Of a stretch of DNA of 6,452 nt, positions 1-5,732 are shown in pieces. The translations under genes were made by a program, and so were the position numbers. The notes below the pieces were generated by a model. The model did no database searches, was not told the DNA's origin, and worked only from the letters and a program-made list of their open reading frames with translations. The number at the start of each line of letters is the position of its first letter. Position 1 is the first letter of the stretch. The stretch comes from Methylocapsa sp. (GTDB taxonomy: Bacteria > Pseudomonadota > Alphaproteobacteria > Rhizobiales > Beijerinckiaceae): NCBI GenBank assembly GCA_003162995.1, contig PLUZ01000287.1, positions 6,178-12,629 on the forward strand, written 5' to 3'.

Positions 1-1017
1 CAGCGCAGTACGCCTGATGGCGCGGGGCTCGACCAAGCGGTCATGCACCTTAAGCTTGCCAAGCGCCAGGAGGTGATCTTGAAAAACCGCCTTCACAGTT
101 TCGAGATAGAACTCGGCCGGCAAATCCATTACCGCGAAATATTCTTCATAGAATGTCTGGATGACCTGAAGCTTGGTAAGATCATTGGCCGCGCGAGCTT
201 CCGCCATATCGTCGAAGGAACGCAGATGGCGCTCCAAGTTCATGCTCAAAAACGCCGCAAGCTGCATGAACCCGGGATAGACCGAGCGTAGCGCGCCTTT
301 GTAGCCGAGAGGAACGTCGTAGACGAGTTTCTGTTCAAACCATTCTATCGGCCGTTCGTTGGCAAGTTCATTGACCTTTGTCGGATTGATGCGCGTATCG
401 ACCGGGCCCGCCATCAAGGTCATGCTGCGCGGCTGCGCCTCGTCGCCGTCTTGCGCCATCAGCGCGGCGGCAGCAAGGACGGGAACACAGGGCTGGCAAA
501 CCGCAATGACATGAGATCCCGCGCCCATCACTTGCAAAAATTTGATTACGTGATCGACAAAACCACCGAAATCAAAGCGGCCCTGGGAGAGCGGCACATC
601 CCGAATGTTATGCCAGTCGGTGATGTAAACGTCATGATCGACCAACATCGTTTTGACCGTTGCACGCAACAATGTCGCGAAATGGCCCGACATGGGAGCA
701 ACCAATAACACCCGCGGTTGGTATGCCTCGGTTTCCTTTCTGAAATGCAGCAGCGTTGCGAAGGGAGTGGAATAGGTCGACTCCTCCGTCACCGGGACGA
801 GACGATTGCCCATCGCGACGGAGGCTATCCCAAAAGGGAGCCGTTCATGTGTCACGGCGAGATCGCCGAATGTTTCCAAGACGCCGCCGAATTTGCGGAT
901 TGACCAGTCCAGCCTGAGCAATGGCCACGGCAAGCACAACGCCTTGCCCGTGGCGGCGGCAAGCGGCCTGATCAGATCGAGAAAGCTCTCGTTCCTACTA
1001 TAAGCTTGATAAATCAA
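1..1017 (-). CDS. phaZ: Intracellular polyhydroxyalkanoate (PHB) depolymerase, 3' end beyond window
   Basis: This enzyme hydrolyses stored poly-3-hydroxybutyrate granules in the cytoplasm, releasing hydroxybutyrate units for carbon and energy supply. The minus strand is open for 339 codons without a stop. It shows the family signature ITDWHN (residues 132-137) and the block AVCQPCVP (172-179), where Cys174 matches the catalytic cysteine known from the Ralstonia PhaZ1 type of intracellular depolymerase. Other family-like stretches are LLVAPMSGHFATLLR (105-119) and MAGPVDTRINP (203-213). The expected catalytic Asp and His lie about 170 and 205 residues after the Cys, so both fall beyond the left edge; the family is usually about 400-430 residues. 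An in-frame TGA at 1090-1092 and the absence of any ATG or GTG after it make TTG at 1015-1017 the start, with GGTGGA six bases upstream. The gene diverges from the GST-like gene. I am very sure of the family. Confidence 0.95.
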   Translation of the reverse strand, partial: MIYQAYSRNESFLDLIRPLAAATGKALCLPWPLLRLDWSIRKFGGVLETFGDLAVTHERLPFGIASVAMGNRLVPVTEESTYSTPFATLLHFRKETEAYQPRVLLVAPMSGHFATLLRATVKTMLVDHDVYITDWHNIRDVPLSQGRFDFGGFVDHVIKFLQVMGAGSHVIAVCQPCVPVLAAAALMAQDGDEAQPRSMTLMAGPVDTRINPTKVNELANERPIEWFEQKLVYDVPLGYKGALRSVYPGFMQLAAFLSMNLERHLRSFDDMAEARAANDLTKLQVIQTFYEEYFAVMDLPAEFYLETVKAVFQDHLLALGKLKVHDRLVEPRAIRRTAL

Positions 1018-1172: not shown

Positions 1173-1826
1173 TTGGGCGACGCCATACTTACGATCAGCA
1201 GCAAGAACTATTCCTCATGGTCGCTGCGCGGCTGGTTGCTGACCAAATTTTCAGGACTGCCTTTCACCGAGAATGTCATCTCGTCAGATGACCCCTCGAT
1301 GCGCGACGAACTCCTGATGCTGTCCTCCTCTTTCCTGGTGCCTAGCCTAATCCACGATGGGATCAACGTTTGGGACACCCTGGCCATCGGAGAGTATCTC
1401 AACGAGATCAAACCCGAGGCGCATTTGCTGCCAGCGGATCCCATCAAGCGGACGCGCTGCCGCTCGATCTGCGGCGAGATGCATTCCGGCTTTGGCGCCC
1501 TGCGCTCGGCTCTGCCTGTGAATTTGCACGGTGATTTCCCGAACTTTAAAATATGGAAGCGAGCTCAGGCCGATATCGACCGCATCACCACGATCTGGCG
1601 GGAGTGTCTCGAGCTTTCCGGGGGCCCTTTTCTGTTGGGCGAACGCTCGATGGCCGACGCAATGTATGCCCCCGTGGTGACACGATTTCTCACCTATCAT
1701 GTCAAATTGGATCCCGTATGCGAGGCATACTGCAAGGAAATCATGGCTCTGCCCGAAATGATCGAATGGATCGAGGCAGCCAAGCAAGAACCCAGTCAGA
1801 TGGAAGAACTCGAGGTTGAGTTCTGA
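1173..1826 (+). CDS. Glutathione S-transferase family protein
   Basis: This is a 217-residue cytosolic GST-type protein, normal length for the superfamily. The N-terminal thioredoxin fold (about residues 4-80) starts with ISSKNYSSWSLRGWLL (8-23); the SSWS serines occupy the position of the catalytic serine in serine-type GSTs. A Val-Pro pair (56-57) fits the cis-proline loop that contacts glutathione, and DTLAIGEYL (68-76) fits the gamma-glutamyl-binding segment, with Asp-Thr where Glu-Ser is usual. The helical C-terminal domain follows, with an N-capping-box-like SMAD near residue 168. The substrate cannot be told; conjugation, reduction or isomerisation are all possible. A TGA at 1152-1154 leaves TTG at 1173 as the only start ahead of the thioredoxin fold, with AAGGA six bases upstream. 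It stands alone, divergent from phaZ and 369 bp before the next gene. Confidence 0.88.
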   Translation: MGDAILTISSKNYSSWSLRGWLLTKFSGLPFTENVISSDDPSMRDELLMLSSSFLVPSLIHDGINVWDTLAIGEYLNEIKPEAHLLPADPIKRTRCRSICGEMHSGFGALRSALPVNLHGDFPNFKIWKRAQADIDRITTIWRECLELSGGPFLLGERSMADAMYAPVVTRFLTYHVKLDPVCEAYCKEIMALPEMIEWIEAAKQEPSQMEELEVEF

Positions 1827-2082: not shown

Positions 2083-2124
2083 CATGGATGATATTGTGAC
2101 AATTCGATGAATGATCTGGCGCAA

Positions 2125-2195: not shown

Positions 2196-4124
2196 ATGAA
2201 ATCCGAGATTATCGAGCAGCTTGGACAGACCGATATTTTGCTGCCATCCCTCATCGCCGAGGGTTTGGCGGCCAACGACCGGGTAAAAGTCCGCCTCAGT
2301 GTCGTGCAGACCGCGAGTCGGCATGCGCGCGATCCCAAAGGCGTGCGCTTCGACCTCATGGACGAGTGCCGCGCTGCCGGCATCGATCCCATGCCTATGG
2401 AAGCGCTTGTCAATCGCGCGAGCCTGTTGGCTGACGAGCAGATCACGGCGCCAGGCCTCGGCAATCTTGGTGATGCGATTTGGGATGATGTGGCGACCAT
2501 GGTCCGGGCCGCTAAAGCCGGCGATGCGGCCCAGGGCGAAGCGTTGCTGGCACGCCTTTCTGCGATCAAAGCAGCCGGCTGGCCGGGACCGTCGGATACG
2601 ATCGGGCTCGCTCAAATCGCAAGACTCACTGGGCTTTCCGACAAAGACGGCGACAGCTTGCATCGCCTCGTCATGGATTTGCACAAGGCCTTGAATCAGC
2701 TTGCCGCCAGCCACGCGGAAGAGGTGCTCGCGGGCGCGCATGTCTACGGCTTGCTGCCGGAGGACCGGCCAGCAGTCGAGGCGTTCATGCGGGGGATCGA
2801 GTCGACCCGTAAGCTGAAATTCGGTCATCCTGGGCTGGCGACGACGGCGTCGCGGTCGGGCACACGGCTCACGATCCAGAACGATATCGGAGAAACCGAC
2901 GCGCATGTGGTCGTGATCGCGGTTGAACAGGACGCGGTGACTGTCACCTACACGGACGTTCATCTCGCGCGTGCGAAGTTCTTCACCGGCCTCTGCCGGA
3001 ATTTTCCTGTTTCATGGAGCGGCCTTGAACGTAGGGGAGCGGAGGGCCTTGGCGATAACGGGGAGTTCTATCTCGTCACGGGCCGGTATCCGACCGGAGA
3101 CGGCCAGCGCCGTGACAGCTTTCTCGAAACAATCGGCGCATCCCTTGTCTTCTTGATTGACTGGAACAAGGCCCGCAAAGTCTTGCGGACGTGGTTACCC
3201 AAGGCCGACGCGGTCCACATCCTCGATTGGGCGGCACGCAATCGATTCGGTCACAGGGGTTTCCTTGAACTGGGCGGAAGCGAACTCGTCGCGTCGGCCG
3301 TGAATCACGCGACACCGGCCCGAATAGGATTCGGCGAGCGATTGGACCAAGCGCTCGGGCGCGATGCGGCTGTGGATTTTCTTAAGACCGTTCTGCGCAT
3401 TTCGGCCGAAGCCTTGCTGGAAGGAGGCTCGGTCCGGCTGGCGAGAGATCGCATCGAGGCAGACCTCGACCGGCATTTGCAACGTGTTGATGCCACGCTG
3501 TTGGCAATTGTCGTTCGTCAGGCCGGCCTGGCGCGCGAGATCGCCGCCGGGATCGCGCATTTCATCACGGAACAGCAGGCGCAGAGGCCATTCGACCGTG
3601 CGGCAATGGCGATGCAGGCGCGACGCATTGAGGAGAAGGCTGATAAGATCGCGCTCGATGCGCGTAGCGAGATCGCGCGGTTTGACGCCGACCCTGCCAT
3701 CGAGCGCCTCGTAAACCGCATCGAGGAGGTGATCGACGAACTCGAGCAAGCGGCGTTCGTTGCTTCGCTTGTCCCAAGCGAAATTGCTCCGGACCTACTC
3801 AAGCTGCTCGCCGAACTTTGCACCATTGCGATCTCAGGTACGGAGGCGGCCGCGATCAGTGTTGCCGCCGCCGCCGACGTGCCGGAAGGACACCGCGTCG
3901 ATTCCGAGGATGCACTCGCGGCAGTTGGCCGGCTCTTTGAGGCGGAACACAATGCCGACGCGGCGGAGCGCATGGTCACGGCGATTGTCCTGCGCGGCGA
4001 ATTCGATCTGAAAACAGCGCTGTCTGTTCTCGAGCTTGCACGCGCTCTTGAACGGGCAACCGACAGGCTGGCAGGGTTCGGACATCTTCTGCGCGAGCAC
4101 GTGCTTGCGGATCTGTCAACGTAA
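2196..4124 (+). CDS. PhoU/DUF47-like C-terminal domain protein with a large unknown N-terminal region
   Basis: The 642-residue product is soluble, with no signal peptide or membrane segment. Residues 1-200 look mainly helical. Residues 205-340 look alpha/beta and include LTIQNDIGETDAH (225-237). A third stretch carries NRFGHRGFLELGG (349-361). I recognise no family for these parts. From about 440 on it is long amphipathic helices like PhoU/DUF47 proteins: RIEEKADKI (477-485) and EAEHNAD (582-588) give two ExxxD motifs (E479/D483, E584/D588) of the kind that hold metal in PhoU proteins, followed by a closing helix ALERATDRLAGFGHLL. The ATG at 2196 has no good Shine-Dalgarno, but a TAG at 2133-2135 and the absence of another ATG, GTG or TTG favour it. 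The PPDK-like gene follows after 18 bases, so the two are surely co-transcribed. A role as acceptor, adaptor or regulator of that enzyme is inferred; a link to phosphate sensing is only suggested by the fold. Confidence 0.75.
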   Translation: MKSEIIEQLGQTDILLPSLIAEGLAANDRVKVRLSVVQTASRHARDPKGVRFDLMDECRAAGIDPMPMEALVNRASLLADEQITAPGLGNLGDAIWDDVATMVRAAKAGDAAQGEALLARLSAIKAAGWPGPSDTIGLAQIARLTGLSDKDGDSLHRLVMDLHKALNQLAASHAEEVLAGAHVYGLLPEDRPAVEAFMRGIESTRKLKFGHPGLATTASRSGTRLTIQNDIGETDAHVVVIAVEQDAVTVTYTDVHLARAKFFTGLCRNFPVSWSGLERRGAEGLGDNGEFYLVTGRYPTGDGQRRDSFLETIGASLVFLIDWNKARKVLRTWLPKADAVHILDWAARNRFGHRGFLELGGSELVASAVNHATPARIGFGERLDQALGRDAAVDFLKTVLRISAEALLEGGSVRLARDRIEADLDRHLQRVDATLLAIVVRQAGLAREIAAGIAHFITEQQAQRPFDRAAMAMQARRIEEKADKIALDARSEIARFDADPAIERLVNRIEEVIDELEQAAFVASLVPSEIAPDLLKLLAELCTIAISGTEAAAISVAAAADVPEGHRVDSEDALAAVGRLFEAEHNADAAERMVTAIVLRGEFDLKTALSVLELARALERATDRLAGFGHLLREHVLADLST

Positions 4125-4127
4125 CAT

Positions 4128-4133
4128 AGAGGG
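4128..4133 (+). promoter_or_regulatory. Ribosome binding site of the PPDK-like gene
   Basis: AGAGGG lies nine bases before the ATG at 4143 and directly after the upstream stop codon (4122-4124). It supports this ATG and independent translation of the second gene, in contrast with the weak initiation region of the first gene. Confidence 0.55.
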
Positions 4134-4142
4134 CGGGCCGCG

Positions 4143-5732
4143 ATGCAGATTGTGCGTATTGGAGACGGATCGACCAAGCAGCATTCCGCTGAAACAATAG
4201 GCGCGAAGGCAGCCAATCTGGCGCGCATGGCCGCTCTCGGGTTTCCAGTGCCGCCTGCATTCGTACTCCCGGTCAAGCTATGTGCCGCGATCGTTGAGAA
4301 TGATCCTCACGCAACGCAAATGCTGATCGATGGCTTGACCGAGGGCATCGAATTCCTTGAGAACGCCACCGGTAGATTGTTCGGTGACCGGCGCCGCCCG
4401 CTGTTGGTCTCGGTGCGTTCAGGCGCCGCACGATCCATGCCCGGAATGTTGGAGACGGTGCTCAACGTTGGCTGCACACCGGCTGCCGTTCACGGTCTTG
4501 TGCGCATGACGGGGCATCCGCGTTTTGCCTGGGACTGCCGGCGCCGGTTTCTCGAAAGCTATGCTAGCGTAGTTCTCGGCGTCGACCCGGCGACATTTGT
4601 AGCGCGGGTCGCCGAATTGGTCGCCGCTGAAGGCGTCGGCAACGAGCGGTCGCTCGACGGCGAAGCACTTGAGCGTCTCGCAGGATGTTACCAGCAGAGG
4701 ATCGAGGATACGGACTGCGTCCTGCCCGAAGATCCAATTGAACAGCTTAAGGCCTCAGCGCAAGCAGTGTATCGCTCGTGGACAAGCGATCGCGCCCGCA
4801 CCTATCGCCAGCATGAGCATCTCGATAATCTGCATGGCACCGCCGTCACGATCCAGGCAATGGTTTATGGAAATCGTGGTCTTTCCTCGGGTGCGGGCGT
4901 GGCGTTTTCGCGCGACCCTTCGACCGGTGCAGCGCAGCCGATTGTGGATGTCTTGTTTGAGTCTCAGGGCGAAGACGTCGTGTCTGGAAGCCATAATCCT
5001 GAAACCGAAGAGGCAATCGCCCGTTCGTTTCCGGCGGTCGCAACGCAATTGCGCGAAACGCTTGCGCGGCTCGAACAAGAGTTCGGTGACGTTCAAGACG
5101 TTGAGTACACAATCGAAGAAGGCAAATTGTGGATCTTGCAGACTCGCTCGGCGAAGCGGACGCCGCTGGCGGCGTTGCGGTTTGCGATCGCCTTCGTCAA
5201 GGAGGGACTGATCACCCCGTCCCAAGCCTTGCGGCGGCTGAACGGCTTGGACTTAAATGCGCTCGCACGCAAACGCCTAGTCGATGTTCATGAGCCCGTT
5301 GCGCGCGGTACGGGTGCATCCGCAGGGATCGCGGTCGGCCGCGCGGCCTTTGATTCTGGGAGTGCCGAACGTCTAGCAGCCAGCGGCGACCCGGTGATTC
5401 TGGTTCGGCCCGATACCAGCACGTCTGATGTCGCGGGATTCGCTGTCTCCGCGGGAATTGTGACGGCTGTCGGGGGCCGAACCGCGCATGCGGCGCTTGT
5501 GGCACGCCAGATGGGAAAGCCATGCATCGTCGGTTCTGCGGCGCTCACGGTTGATGTGGCGAGCCATTGCGCAAACCTTGCCGGAACTCCGATCAAAGAG
5601 GGGGATTGGCTTTCAATCGATGGGGAGGCAGGGACGATCTATCTCGGCCAATGCAACGTCGTCGTCGACCGGCCGGAAACGGAGTTGGCAGAAATCGAGC
5701 GATGGCGCATTAAGTCGCTTGAACACTTATGA
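4143..5732 (+). CDS. PPDK-like phosphotransferase: ATP-binding and phosphohistidine domains only
   Basis: The 529-residue product matches the first two domains of pyruvate phosphate dikinase. The ATP-binding part (about 1-340) has GAKAANLARM (20-29, Lys22), SVRSGAARSMPGM (90-102, Arg92), GVAFSRDPSTG (252-262), QGEDVVSG (275-282) and VEYTIEEGKLWILQTR (320-335) with Glu321 and Gln333. These fit the Clostridium symbiosum ATP-site residues Lys22, Arg92, Glu323 and Gln335. The swivel domain (about 385-515) has GGRTAHAALVAR, with His449 in the place of catalytic His455. The protein ends there, whereas full PPDK is about 870-900 residues and continues with a PEP/pyruvate barrel. It cannot make PEP alone, but should be able to phosphorylate its own histidine from ATP and pass the group to an unknown acceptor. 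The clean ending right after a complete domain argues against a decayed ppdK. It is the second gene of the operon. Rifampin phosphotransferase and glucan water dikinase are known relatives with other acceptors, but their substrate domains are absent here. Confidence 0.9.
   Translation: MQIVRIGDGSTKQHSAETIGAKAANLARMAALGFPVPPAFVLPVKLCAAIVENDPHATQMLIDGLTEGIEFLENATGRLFGDRRRPLLVSVRSGAARSMPGMLETVLNVGCTPAAVHGLVRMTGHPRFAWDCRRRFLESYASVVLGVDPATFVARVAELVAAEGVGNERSLDGEALERLAGCYQQRIEDTDCVLPEDPIEQLKASAQAVYRSWTSDRARTYRQHEHLDNLHGTAVTIQAMVYGNRGLSSGAGVAFSRDPSTGAAQPIVDVLFESQGEDVVSGSHNPETEEAIARSFPAVATQLRETLARLEQEFGDVQDVEYTIEEGKLWILQTRSAKRTPLAALRFAIAFVKEGLITPSQALRRLNGLDLNALARKRLVDVHEPVARGTGASAGIAVGRAAFDSGSAERLAASGDPVILVRPDTSTSDVAGFAVSAGIVTAVGGRTAHAALVARQMGKPCIVGSAALTVDVASHCANLAGTPIKEGDWLSIDGEAGTIYLGQCNVVVDRPETELAEIERWRIKSLEHL

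Follow-up and report, generated by a model that had tools for sequence, protein, structure and literature searches.

A conserved gene pair of Methylocapsa and its relatives places a barrel-less dikinase beside a three-part protein with a predicted PhoU-type domain

In a 6,452-base stretch of a Methylocapsa sp. genome (hereafter the window; assembly GCA_003162995.1, contig PLUZ01000287.1, positions 6178-12629 of a 12,629-base contig; the 4.36-Mb source genome is 88.6% complete), two adjacent genes make up a patchily distributed unit. Gene 1 encodes a three-part protein with a predicted PhoU-type C-terminal domain, and gene 2 encodes a dikinase derived from pyruvate, phosphate dikinase (PPDK) that lacks the phosphoenolpyruvate (PEP)/pyruvate barrel. 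In our opinion, the pair is best read as a two-component dikinase, to which we assign a rough probability of 45%: gene 2 would first take up a phosphoryl group from ATP on His449 and then hand it over to an acceptor site within gene 1, in its central domain, with the PhoU/DUF47 domain gating the transfer according to phosphate or metal status. Both open reading frames (ORFs) appear on the plus strand of the ORF list, with the 18-base spacer described by the first-pass annotation, which was made from the DNA letters alone:

2196..4124, plus strand: gene 1, ORF of 642 residues, three-part protein
4125..4142, plus strand: spacer between the genes, 18 bases
4143..5732, plus strand: gene 2, ORF of 529 residues, PPDK-derived dikinase (ATP-grasp and swivel domain, without the PEP/pyruvate barrel)

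Conservation of the pairing

The first line of evidence is the constancy of the pairing across genomes (sampled genomes and loci are labeled G and L, respectively). Gene 1 was found in 9 of the 289 class genomes, in 12 of the 297 order genomes (setting aside G376, a partial match with E 7e-4 over residues 33-116 only), in 4 of the 398 phylum genomes (setting aside G714 and G820, which match only the DUF47 part, residues 477-633), in 2 of the 60 genomes from the family of G004 and, with a distant member as the query, in 1 of 274 genomes from the class to which G714 belongs. With repeats removed, 22 gene 1 genomes were sampled, and gene 2 follows in all 22, which include G581 (gene 1 split over two contigs) and G495 (gene 2 interrupted). 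Conversely, a search with gene 2 returned 19 Hyphomicrobiales loci, each with gene 1 directly upstream (cut by the contig start in L013 and in two pieces in L019); the 20th match, from a planctomycete, is an 897-residue frame, as expected for a full-length PPDK, with no gene 1 match.

Two plasmids, of Methylocella and of the betaproteobacterium Aquabacterium, carry the intact pair; in a third plasmid record, NZ_LR536451 (Methylocella; outside the 22), the genes are adjacent but each is in several pieces. Pairing is kept down to about 34% identity, plasmids included. The dedicated partnership suggested earlier is thus strongly supported, and the genes do not occur mostly apart elsewhere: no full gene 1 without gene 2 was found in the 22 sampled genomes, the 19 Hyphomicrobiales loci and the 3 plasmid records. 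Gene 2 was also not found at the DUF47-only loci L076, L077, and L097 of G714 and G820. Across 38 loci, the spacing of the two genes ranges from -11 to +180 bases; stop and start overlap in 6 loci, and another 20 are within about 20 bases.

The proteins appear to have traveled together. The distance matrices of gene 1 and gene 2 proteins are correlated with r 0.98 over 36 pairs (L083, L084, L087, L096, and the incomplete L013, L019, and L090 being left out), a value reached in 0 of 2000 permutations; calculated without a third-gene control, this correlation mainly tells that the two genes descended together. A tree was built from 24 paired dikinases, 21 full PPDKs, and 4 unpaired truncated dikinases; in it, the paired sequences form one group (24 of 24, SH-aLRT 100), so that the pair would have one origin in the sampled material if the root lies outside this group. 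The unpaired truncated forms (two from Rhodococcus, one each from Diaphorobacter and Novosphingobium) fall outside it; VadK itself, discussed below, is not in the tree. A reverse search of the order sample with gene 2 gave, among its best rows, only gene 1 genomes above the range of full-length PPDKs, except the full-length G310; G469 exceeds that range by only a little, G495 is absent from the best rows, and short unpaired dikinases may lie further down than these rows.

The family is large: gene 1 has at least 2,391 database matches at E<=0.001 among 7,997 candidates, and its distant member has 3,499. Relatives of gene 1 or gene 2 carry the names Pseudomonas, Azotobacter, Thauera, Halomonas, Mesorhizobium, and Tistrella; one of the gene 1 relatives is from Azotobacter vinelandii. 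Among the matches listed, gene 1 relatives are mostly annotated as "hypothetical protein", "UPF0111/DUF47 family" or "phosphate transport regulator", and partners in the distant branch as "pyruvate, phosphate dikinase" or "PEP/pyruvate-binding domain-containing protein".

Interrupted copies, namely gene 2 of G495 (L090 8958-9905) and both genes of the Methylocella plasmid record (L127 4558-7841), reflect either sequencing error or real decay.

Gene 2 is a dikinase without a barrel

Two Pfam domains, and no others, were identified in gene 2: PPDK_N (PF01326, E 1.1e-37) and the PEP-utilizers mobile domain (PF00391, E 1.9e-21). Almost all of gene 2 can be aligned with residues 17-511 of the 874-residue PPDK 9pzl (E 2e-107), and it covers the PPDK model TIGR01828 only at positions 10-522 of 865. 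The barrel is missing, since gene 2 stops at residue 529, with the PPDK model extending to 865 and PPDK chains to about 874. Matching PPDK only through the swivel domain, gene 2 is indeed the dikinase without an acceptor part that had been proposed. Two features within it deserve mention:

5388..5633, plus strand: phosphohistidine swivel domain, residues 416-497 (PF00391)
5487..5489, plus strand: codon of the predicted catalytic His449 (conserved in 22 of 22 paired sequences; aligned with PPDK)

Eight residues are invariant in the 22 paired sequences: Lys22, Arg92, Asp319, Glu321, Gln333, Arg335, Thr447, and His449. On the basis of the alignment and of PPDK numbering, all but Thr447 are presumably ATP-site or catalytic residues. 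Thr447, two residues before His449, occupies the position described for PPDK as that of the regulatory threonine. By homology with PPDK and VadK, His449 is probably phosphorylated.

The source genome also encodes a complete PPDK elsewhere (G000:C444), a 922-residue frame 43% identical to gene 2. The possibility that gene 2 is the genome's own PPDK was considered and rejected on the grounds of this complete copy and the absent barrel. Thus, gene 2 resembles PPDK in its alignment to residues ~17-511 and in its retained ATP-site residues and catalytic histidine, and differs from it in the lack of the barrel, the separate branch, the constant gene 1 partner, and the presence of a complete PPDK in the same genome.

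Gene 1 is a three-part protein

The gene 1 model (mean predicted local distance difference test score, pLDDT, 87.7; predicted template modeling score, pTM, 0.62) and the alignment of 98 family sequences, in which columns kept in at least 97% of sequences were counted as conserved, divide the protein as follows:

2196..2636, plus strand: N-terminal helical part, residues 1-147 (secondary structure of the model; 16 of 147 columns conserved)
2637..3323, plus strand: central domain, residues 148-376 (58 of 229 columns conserved; proposed acceptor site)
3486..4121, plus strand: C-terminal PhoU/DUF47 domain, residues 431-642 (18 of 212 columns conserved)

With 58 of 229 positions conserved, against 18 of 212 for the PhoU domain, the central domain is the best conserved part of gene 1, a pattern that an active or binding site would produce. 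Its conserved residues are polar: six histidines (156, 163, 211, 237, 256, and 353, each at 0.98-1.0 in the 98 sequences), four aspartates (190, 230, 254, and 322), three asparagines (167, 229, and 324), and the arginines or lysines at 164, 208, 220, 224, 259, 327, and 328. Modeled alone, this domain reaches a pLDDT of 88.4 and a pTM of 0.86.

The assignment of the C-terminal part had to be made through relatives and through the model, because gene 1 of the window has no Pfam match above the cut-off, and none to PF01865 even at E<=1. PhoU_div/DUF47 is matched at E<=1 by 13 of 23 gene 1 family members (best 3.7e-7); PF01865 is present in many relatives of the distant gene 1 member, among the matches listed; and the modeled C-terminal domain of gene 1 matches DUF47/PhoU crystal structures. 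The C-terminus is therefore predicted to have a PhoU-type helical-bundle fold, in agreement with the earlier naming of gene 1 as PhoU/DUF47-like. Four pairs of acidic residues in this domain, Glu479/Asp483, Asp514/Glu517, Glu584/Asp588, and Glu619/Asp623, are conserved at 1.0 in the 98 sequences; we take these repeated motifs to be metal-binding. It should be noted that solved DUF47 (PF01865) matches such as BT4638 (3l39) are single domains of about 205-225 residues, whereas gene 1 is longer by ~430 residues, the conserved central domain among them, and has a dikinase as its constant neighbor. An ordinary PhoU was rejected as the identity of gene 1, which is too long and has its strongest conservation outside the PhoU part.

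In G714, a stand-alone 208-residue DUF47-like protein (L076 463-2103) matches only the PhoU part of gene 1. The gene adjoining it, judged by eye, presumably encodes a Pit-type permease.

A conserved element upstream of the pair

The DNA 5' of gene 1 is poorly conserved except for one element, TGACA-N5/6-ATGAATGAYCTNGCNCAA, that stands out in the alignment of 17 loci and is not seen in L011. In the window it reads:

2097..2124, plus strand: conserved upstream element TGACA-N5-ATGAATGATCTGGCGCAA, containing a FixK/FNR-like box at 2111-2124

A box of this kind (at least 7 of 8 half-site positions) is present at -60 to -90 in 26 of 40 loci, compared with 1.35 +/- 1.17 and a maximum of 8 in 2000 random draws, which came from the same loci with relatedness uncorrected. 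L096 (the contig of the window) and L087 (with a contig as long as that of L017) count as duplicates and are left out of these analyses, as is L013, where gene 1 is cut. Besides the window, the box occurs in L001-L007, L009, L010, L012, L014-L019, L078, L079, L086, L088-L092, and L098; it scores 7 of 8 positions in the window and 8 of 8, at -67, in the Methylocella plasmid L098. With at most one mismatch allowed, three genomes each have a single copy of the extended element, located at the promoter of the pair.

According to PMC9104804, the FixK2 box of Bradyrhizobium is TTGA/C-N6-T/GCAA, and a table of that paper gives ATGATCTGGGTCAA as a FixK2-associated box and the xfp-ackA operon as FixK2-associated in B. 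diazoefficiens. The window box agrees with this FixK2 box at 7 of 8 positions and lies at a similar distance; it differs in beginning with A rather than T and in conservation that extends beyond the box (ATGAATGA...). In L007 and L088, xfp or ackA precedes the pair. A FixK/FNR-type regulator may induce the pair under low oxygen. The main text of a low-oxygen Bradyrhizobium proteome paper (PMC6515984) contains neither "dikinase" nor "PhoU".

In many loci, a short ORF beginning with MNDLAQ is another possible reading of the upstream element. A perfect 14-base palindrome, AGCACGATCGTGCT, lies at 2134-2147 between the element and gene 1 and was not seen 5' of gene 1 in 11 relatives.

Proposed mechanism and its alternatives

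In the dikinase group, as its literature outlines, a histidine domain picks up phosphate at the ATP-grasp and swivels to deliver it to a second substrate. PPDK combines ATP, histidine, and pyruvate/PEP domains, the last being the acceptor part that binds PEP/pyruvate; in RPH, a rifampin-binding domain is the acceptor part. Gene 2 has the donor and the carrier without an acceptor, and gene 1, always adjacent, has a conserved polar domain and a PhoU domain; the simplest reading is that gene 1 supplies the acceptor site, which its PhoU domain would link to phosphate or metal. The roles suggested at the outset, namely that gene 1 may be the phosphoryl acceptor, the substrate site or the controller, may each apply, and the anatomy of the two proteins favors an acceptor site in gene 1 with control by PhoU. 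In the mechanism we propose, gene 2 would take a phosphoryl group from ATP onto the conserved His449 and pass it to an acceptor site in the gene 1 central domain. The acceptor would most likely be a small molecule bound in this domain, which would replace the missing barrel. Transfer may be gated by the PhoU/DUF47 domain in response to phosphate or metal status, and a FixK/FNR-type regulator may switch the pair on at low oxygen. A bolder form of this proposal, in which a PPDK machine has been split, its pyruvate barrel replaced by an undescribed acceptor domain fused to a PhoU sensor, and the resulting enzyme, reading both ATP and phosphate, records phosphate status in a metabolite or signal at low oxygen, is tentative and, as a whole, somewhat improbable.

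Several observations weigh against the two-component dikinase. Contact between the two proteins is something we infer, and the pTM of 0.62 leaves the domain arrangement of gene 1 uncertain. Structure comparison of the modeled central domain gave no confident fold match, so the case for its catalytic or binding role comes from conservation alone. ORF clustering offered no substrate candidate, no cluster besides the pair being present in more than 8 of 38 loci. As regards low oxygen, the FixK-like box is absent from -60 to -90 in 14 of 40 loci, the extended element was not found (at most one mismatch) in a fourth genome, G337, which carries the pair, and an element found once per genome seems unlike a simple regulon box.

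The alternative that survives best, although we consider it unlikely, is that gene 2 is a VadK-like histidine kinase acting on other cellular proteins, with gene 1 only its phosphate- or metal-sensing regulator or scaffold. PhoU/DUF47 proteins are generally regulators, the DUF47-only relative of the gene 1 C-terminus in G714 stands beside the presumed Pit-type permease, and Thr447, at the regulatory position of PPDK, is kept in 22 of 22 sequences. VadK (Rv1127c) of Mycobacterium tuberculosis, as described in PMC13400623, is likewise a barrel-less PPDK with its histidine kept: it is cut after the swivel domain, autophosphorylates its histidine with ATP and Mg, and binds methylcitrate-cycle enzymes. 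However, the account of VadK in that paper, as far as we draw on it, places it beside methylcitrate genes, gives it metabolic enzymes as partners, and mentions no DUF47-type partner, whereas the neighbors of the window pair are a PHB (polyhydroxybutyrate) depolymerase and a GST-like gene, not methylcitrate-cycle genes (the downstream side is cut by the contig end), and no neighbor is constant. Moreover, the strongest constraint on gene 1 lies in the central domain rather than the PhoU part, which is more active-site-like than sensor-like, and the paired dikinases branch apart from the 4 unpaired truncated forms.

A phosphorelay, in which phosphorylated His449 would donate to one of six conserved gene 1 histidines and gene 1, once phosphorylated, would signal to phosphate uptake through PstB or Pit, is somewhat less likely. 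The conservation of these histidines at 0.98-1.0, the PhoU-type output domain, and two genomes with gene 1 directly after pstB are all compatible with it, but so many conserved His, Asp, Asn, and Arg residues would fit a substrate or metal site better than a single phospho-acceptor, and the pst association was seen in one genus only. Finally, that gene 2 is a decaying PPDK copy held by operon inertia beside an unrelated DUF47 gene is very improbable: the complete PPDK elsewhere in the genome and the interrupted copies in G495 and one plasmid record would suit such a remnant, but it is largely refuted by the full conservation of the ATP-site and histidine residues in 22 paired sequences, by pairing that persists to about 34% identity and on plasmids, and by the matching distances.

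The two-component dikinase also invites comparison with the small-molecule dikinases HpeHI/CreHI/PpsAB, in which, according to PMC12167813, two polypeptides share the enzyme: one of them provides the acceptor site, and a swivel histidine is the carrier. For HpeHI, published work saw no stable complex. The division over two chains with such a carrier is alike, as proposed here. The arrangement is different: in those systems the ATP-grasp stands alone and the swivel domain is fused to the substrate-binding part, whereas here gene 2 carries both, and the proposed acceptor part lies on the other chain, joined to a PhoU domain. We regard the pair as a variant within the dikinases, set apart from PPDK, VadK, and HpeHI membership.

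If the two proteins are halves of one machine, both current annotations mislead, because gene 2 lacks the PEP-making part and gene 1 is no plain PhoU regulator. No paper joining DUF47/UPF0111/PhoU-type proteins with a dikinase or PPDK was found in the open-licence full-text literature, and among the titles listed by a looser search there, none mentions such a pair. A PhoU-gated dikinase, if true, would be, to our knowledge, the first known phosphoryl-transfer enzyme with a PhoU/DUF47 domain as one of its parts. The pair offers a testable link between phosphate sensing and histidine-phosphate chemistry. Like VadK and HpeHI, it suggests how the PPDK fold may have been turned to other uses, and in the central domain of gene 1 it brings a new domain that holds a candidate active site.

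Neighboring genes and related loci

The pair had been called isolated on both sides. Upstream, 369 bases separate gene 1 from the nearest gene; downstream, the view extends only 720 bases past gene 2, to the contig end, which is also the right edge of the window, and no certain gene was seen in these bases. The remaining genes of the window are:

1173-1826, plus strand: GST-like (glutathione-S-transferase-like) gene, 369 bases upstream of gene 1
1-1017, minus strand: partial PHB depolymerase near the pair (TIGR01849, 391 bits; cut-off 301)

A larger conserved operon was rejected on the basis of the ORF clustering of the 38 loci described above. The ORF caller chose the wrong strand in some GC-rich stretches and missed some gene 1 and gene 2 labels, which makes absences weak evidence.

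Individual loci have suggestive neighbors. A pstB gene (TIGR00972; 355 and 366 bits, cut-off 343) directly precedes gene 1 in G004 and G1212, two genomes of one genus, and ends 4 bases before it in G004 and 13 bases before it (to the first ATG of the ORF) in G1212. Both genomes have a higher-scoring pstB elsewhere. Both gene 1 carriers among the 60 genomes of the G004 family have a second pstB directly before gene 1, an association with phosphate that speaks for the proposed two-component dikinase with its PhoU control:

L080 7523-8347 and L108 9944-10828: second pstB before gene 1

The frames adjoining the other, higher-scoring pstB of G004 resemble, by eye, pstC and pstA. A phosphoketolase precedes the pair in the Bradyrhizobium locus L007, a phosphoketolase (by eye) and an acetate kinase precede it in L088 (G538), and an acid phosphatase in the Methylocapsa locus L011.

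Truncated PPDKs also occur in other settings. On plasmids of Diaphorobacter and Rhodococcus (L110 2556-6440; L111 3899-7945), truncated "PPDK" genes have "PEP-utilizing enzyme" genes close by, and no DUF47 gene is annotated in their vicinity, an arrangement reminiscent of two-component aromatic kinases. On the Rhodococcus opacus plasmid pROB02 (L109 4791-6694), a truncated PPDK of 570 residues overlaps a ferredoxin gene by 4 bases, with cytochrome P450 and oxidoreductase genes alongside.

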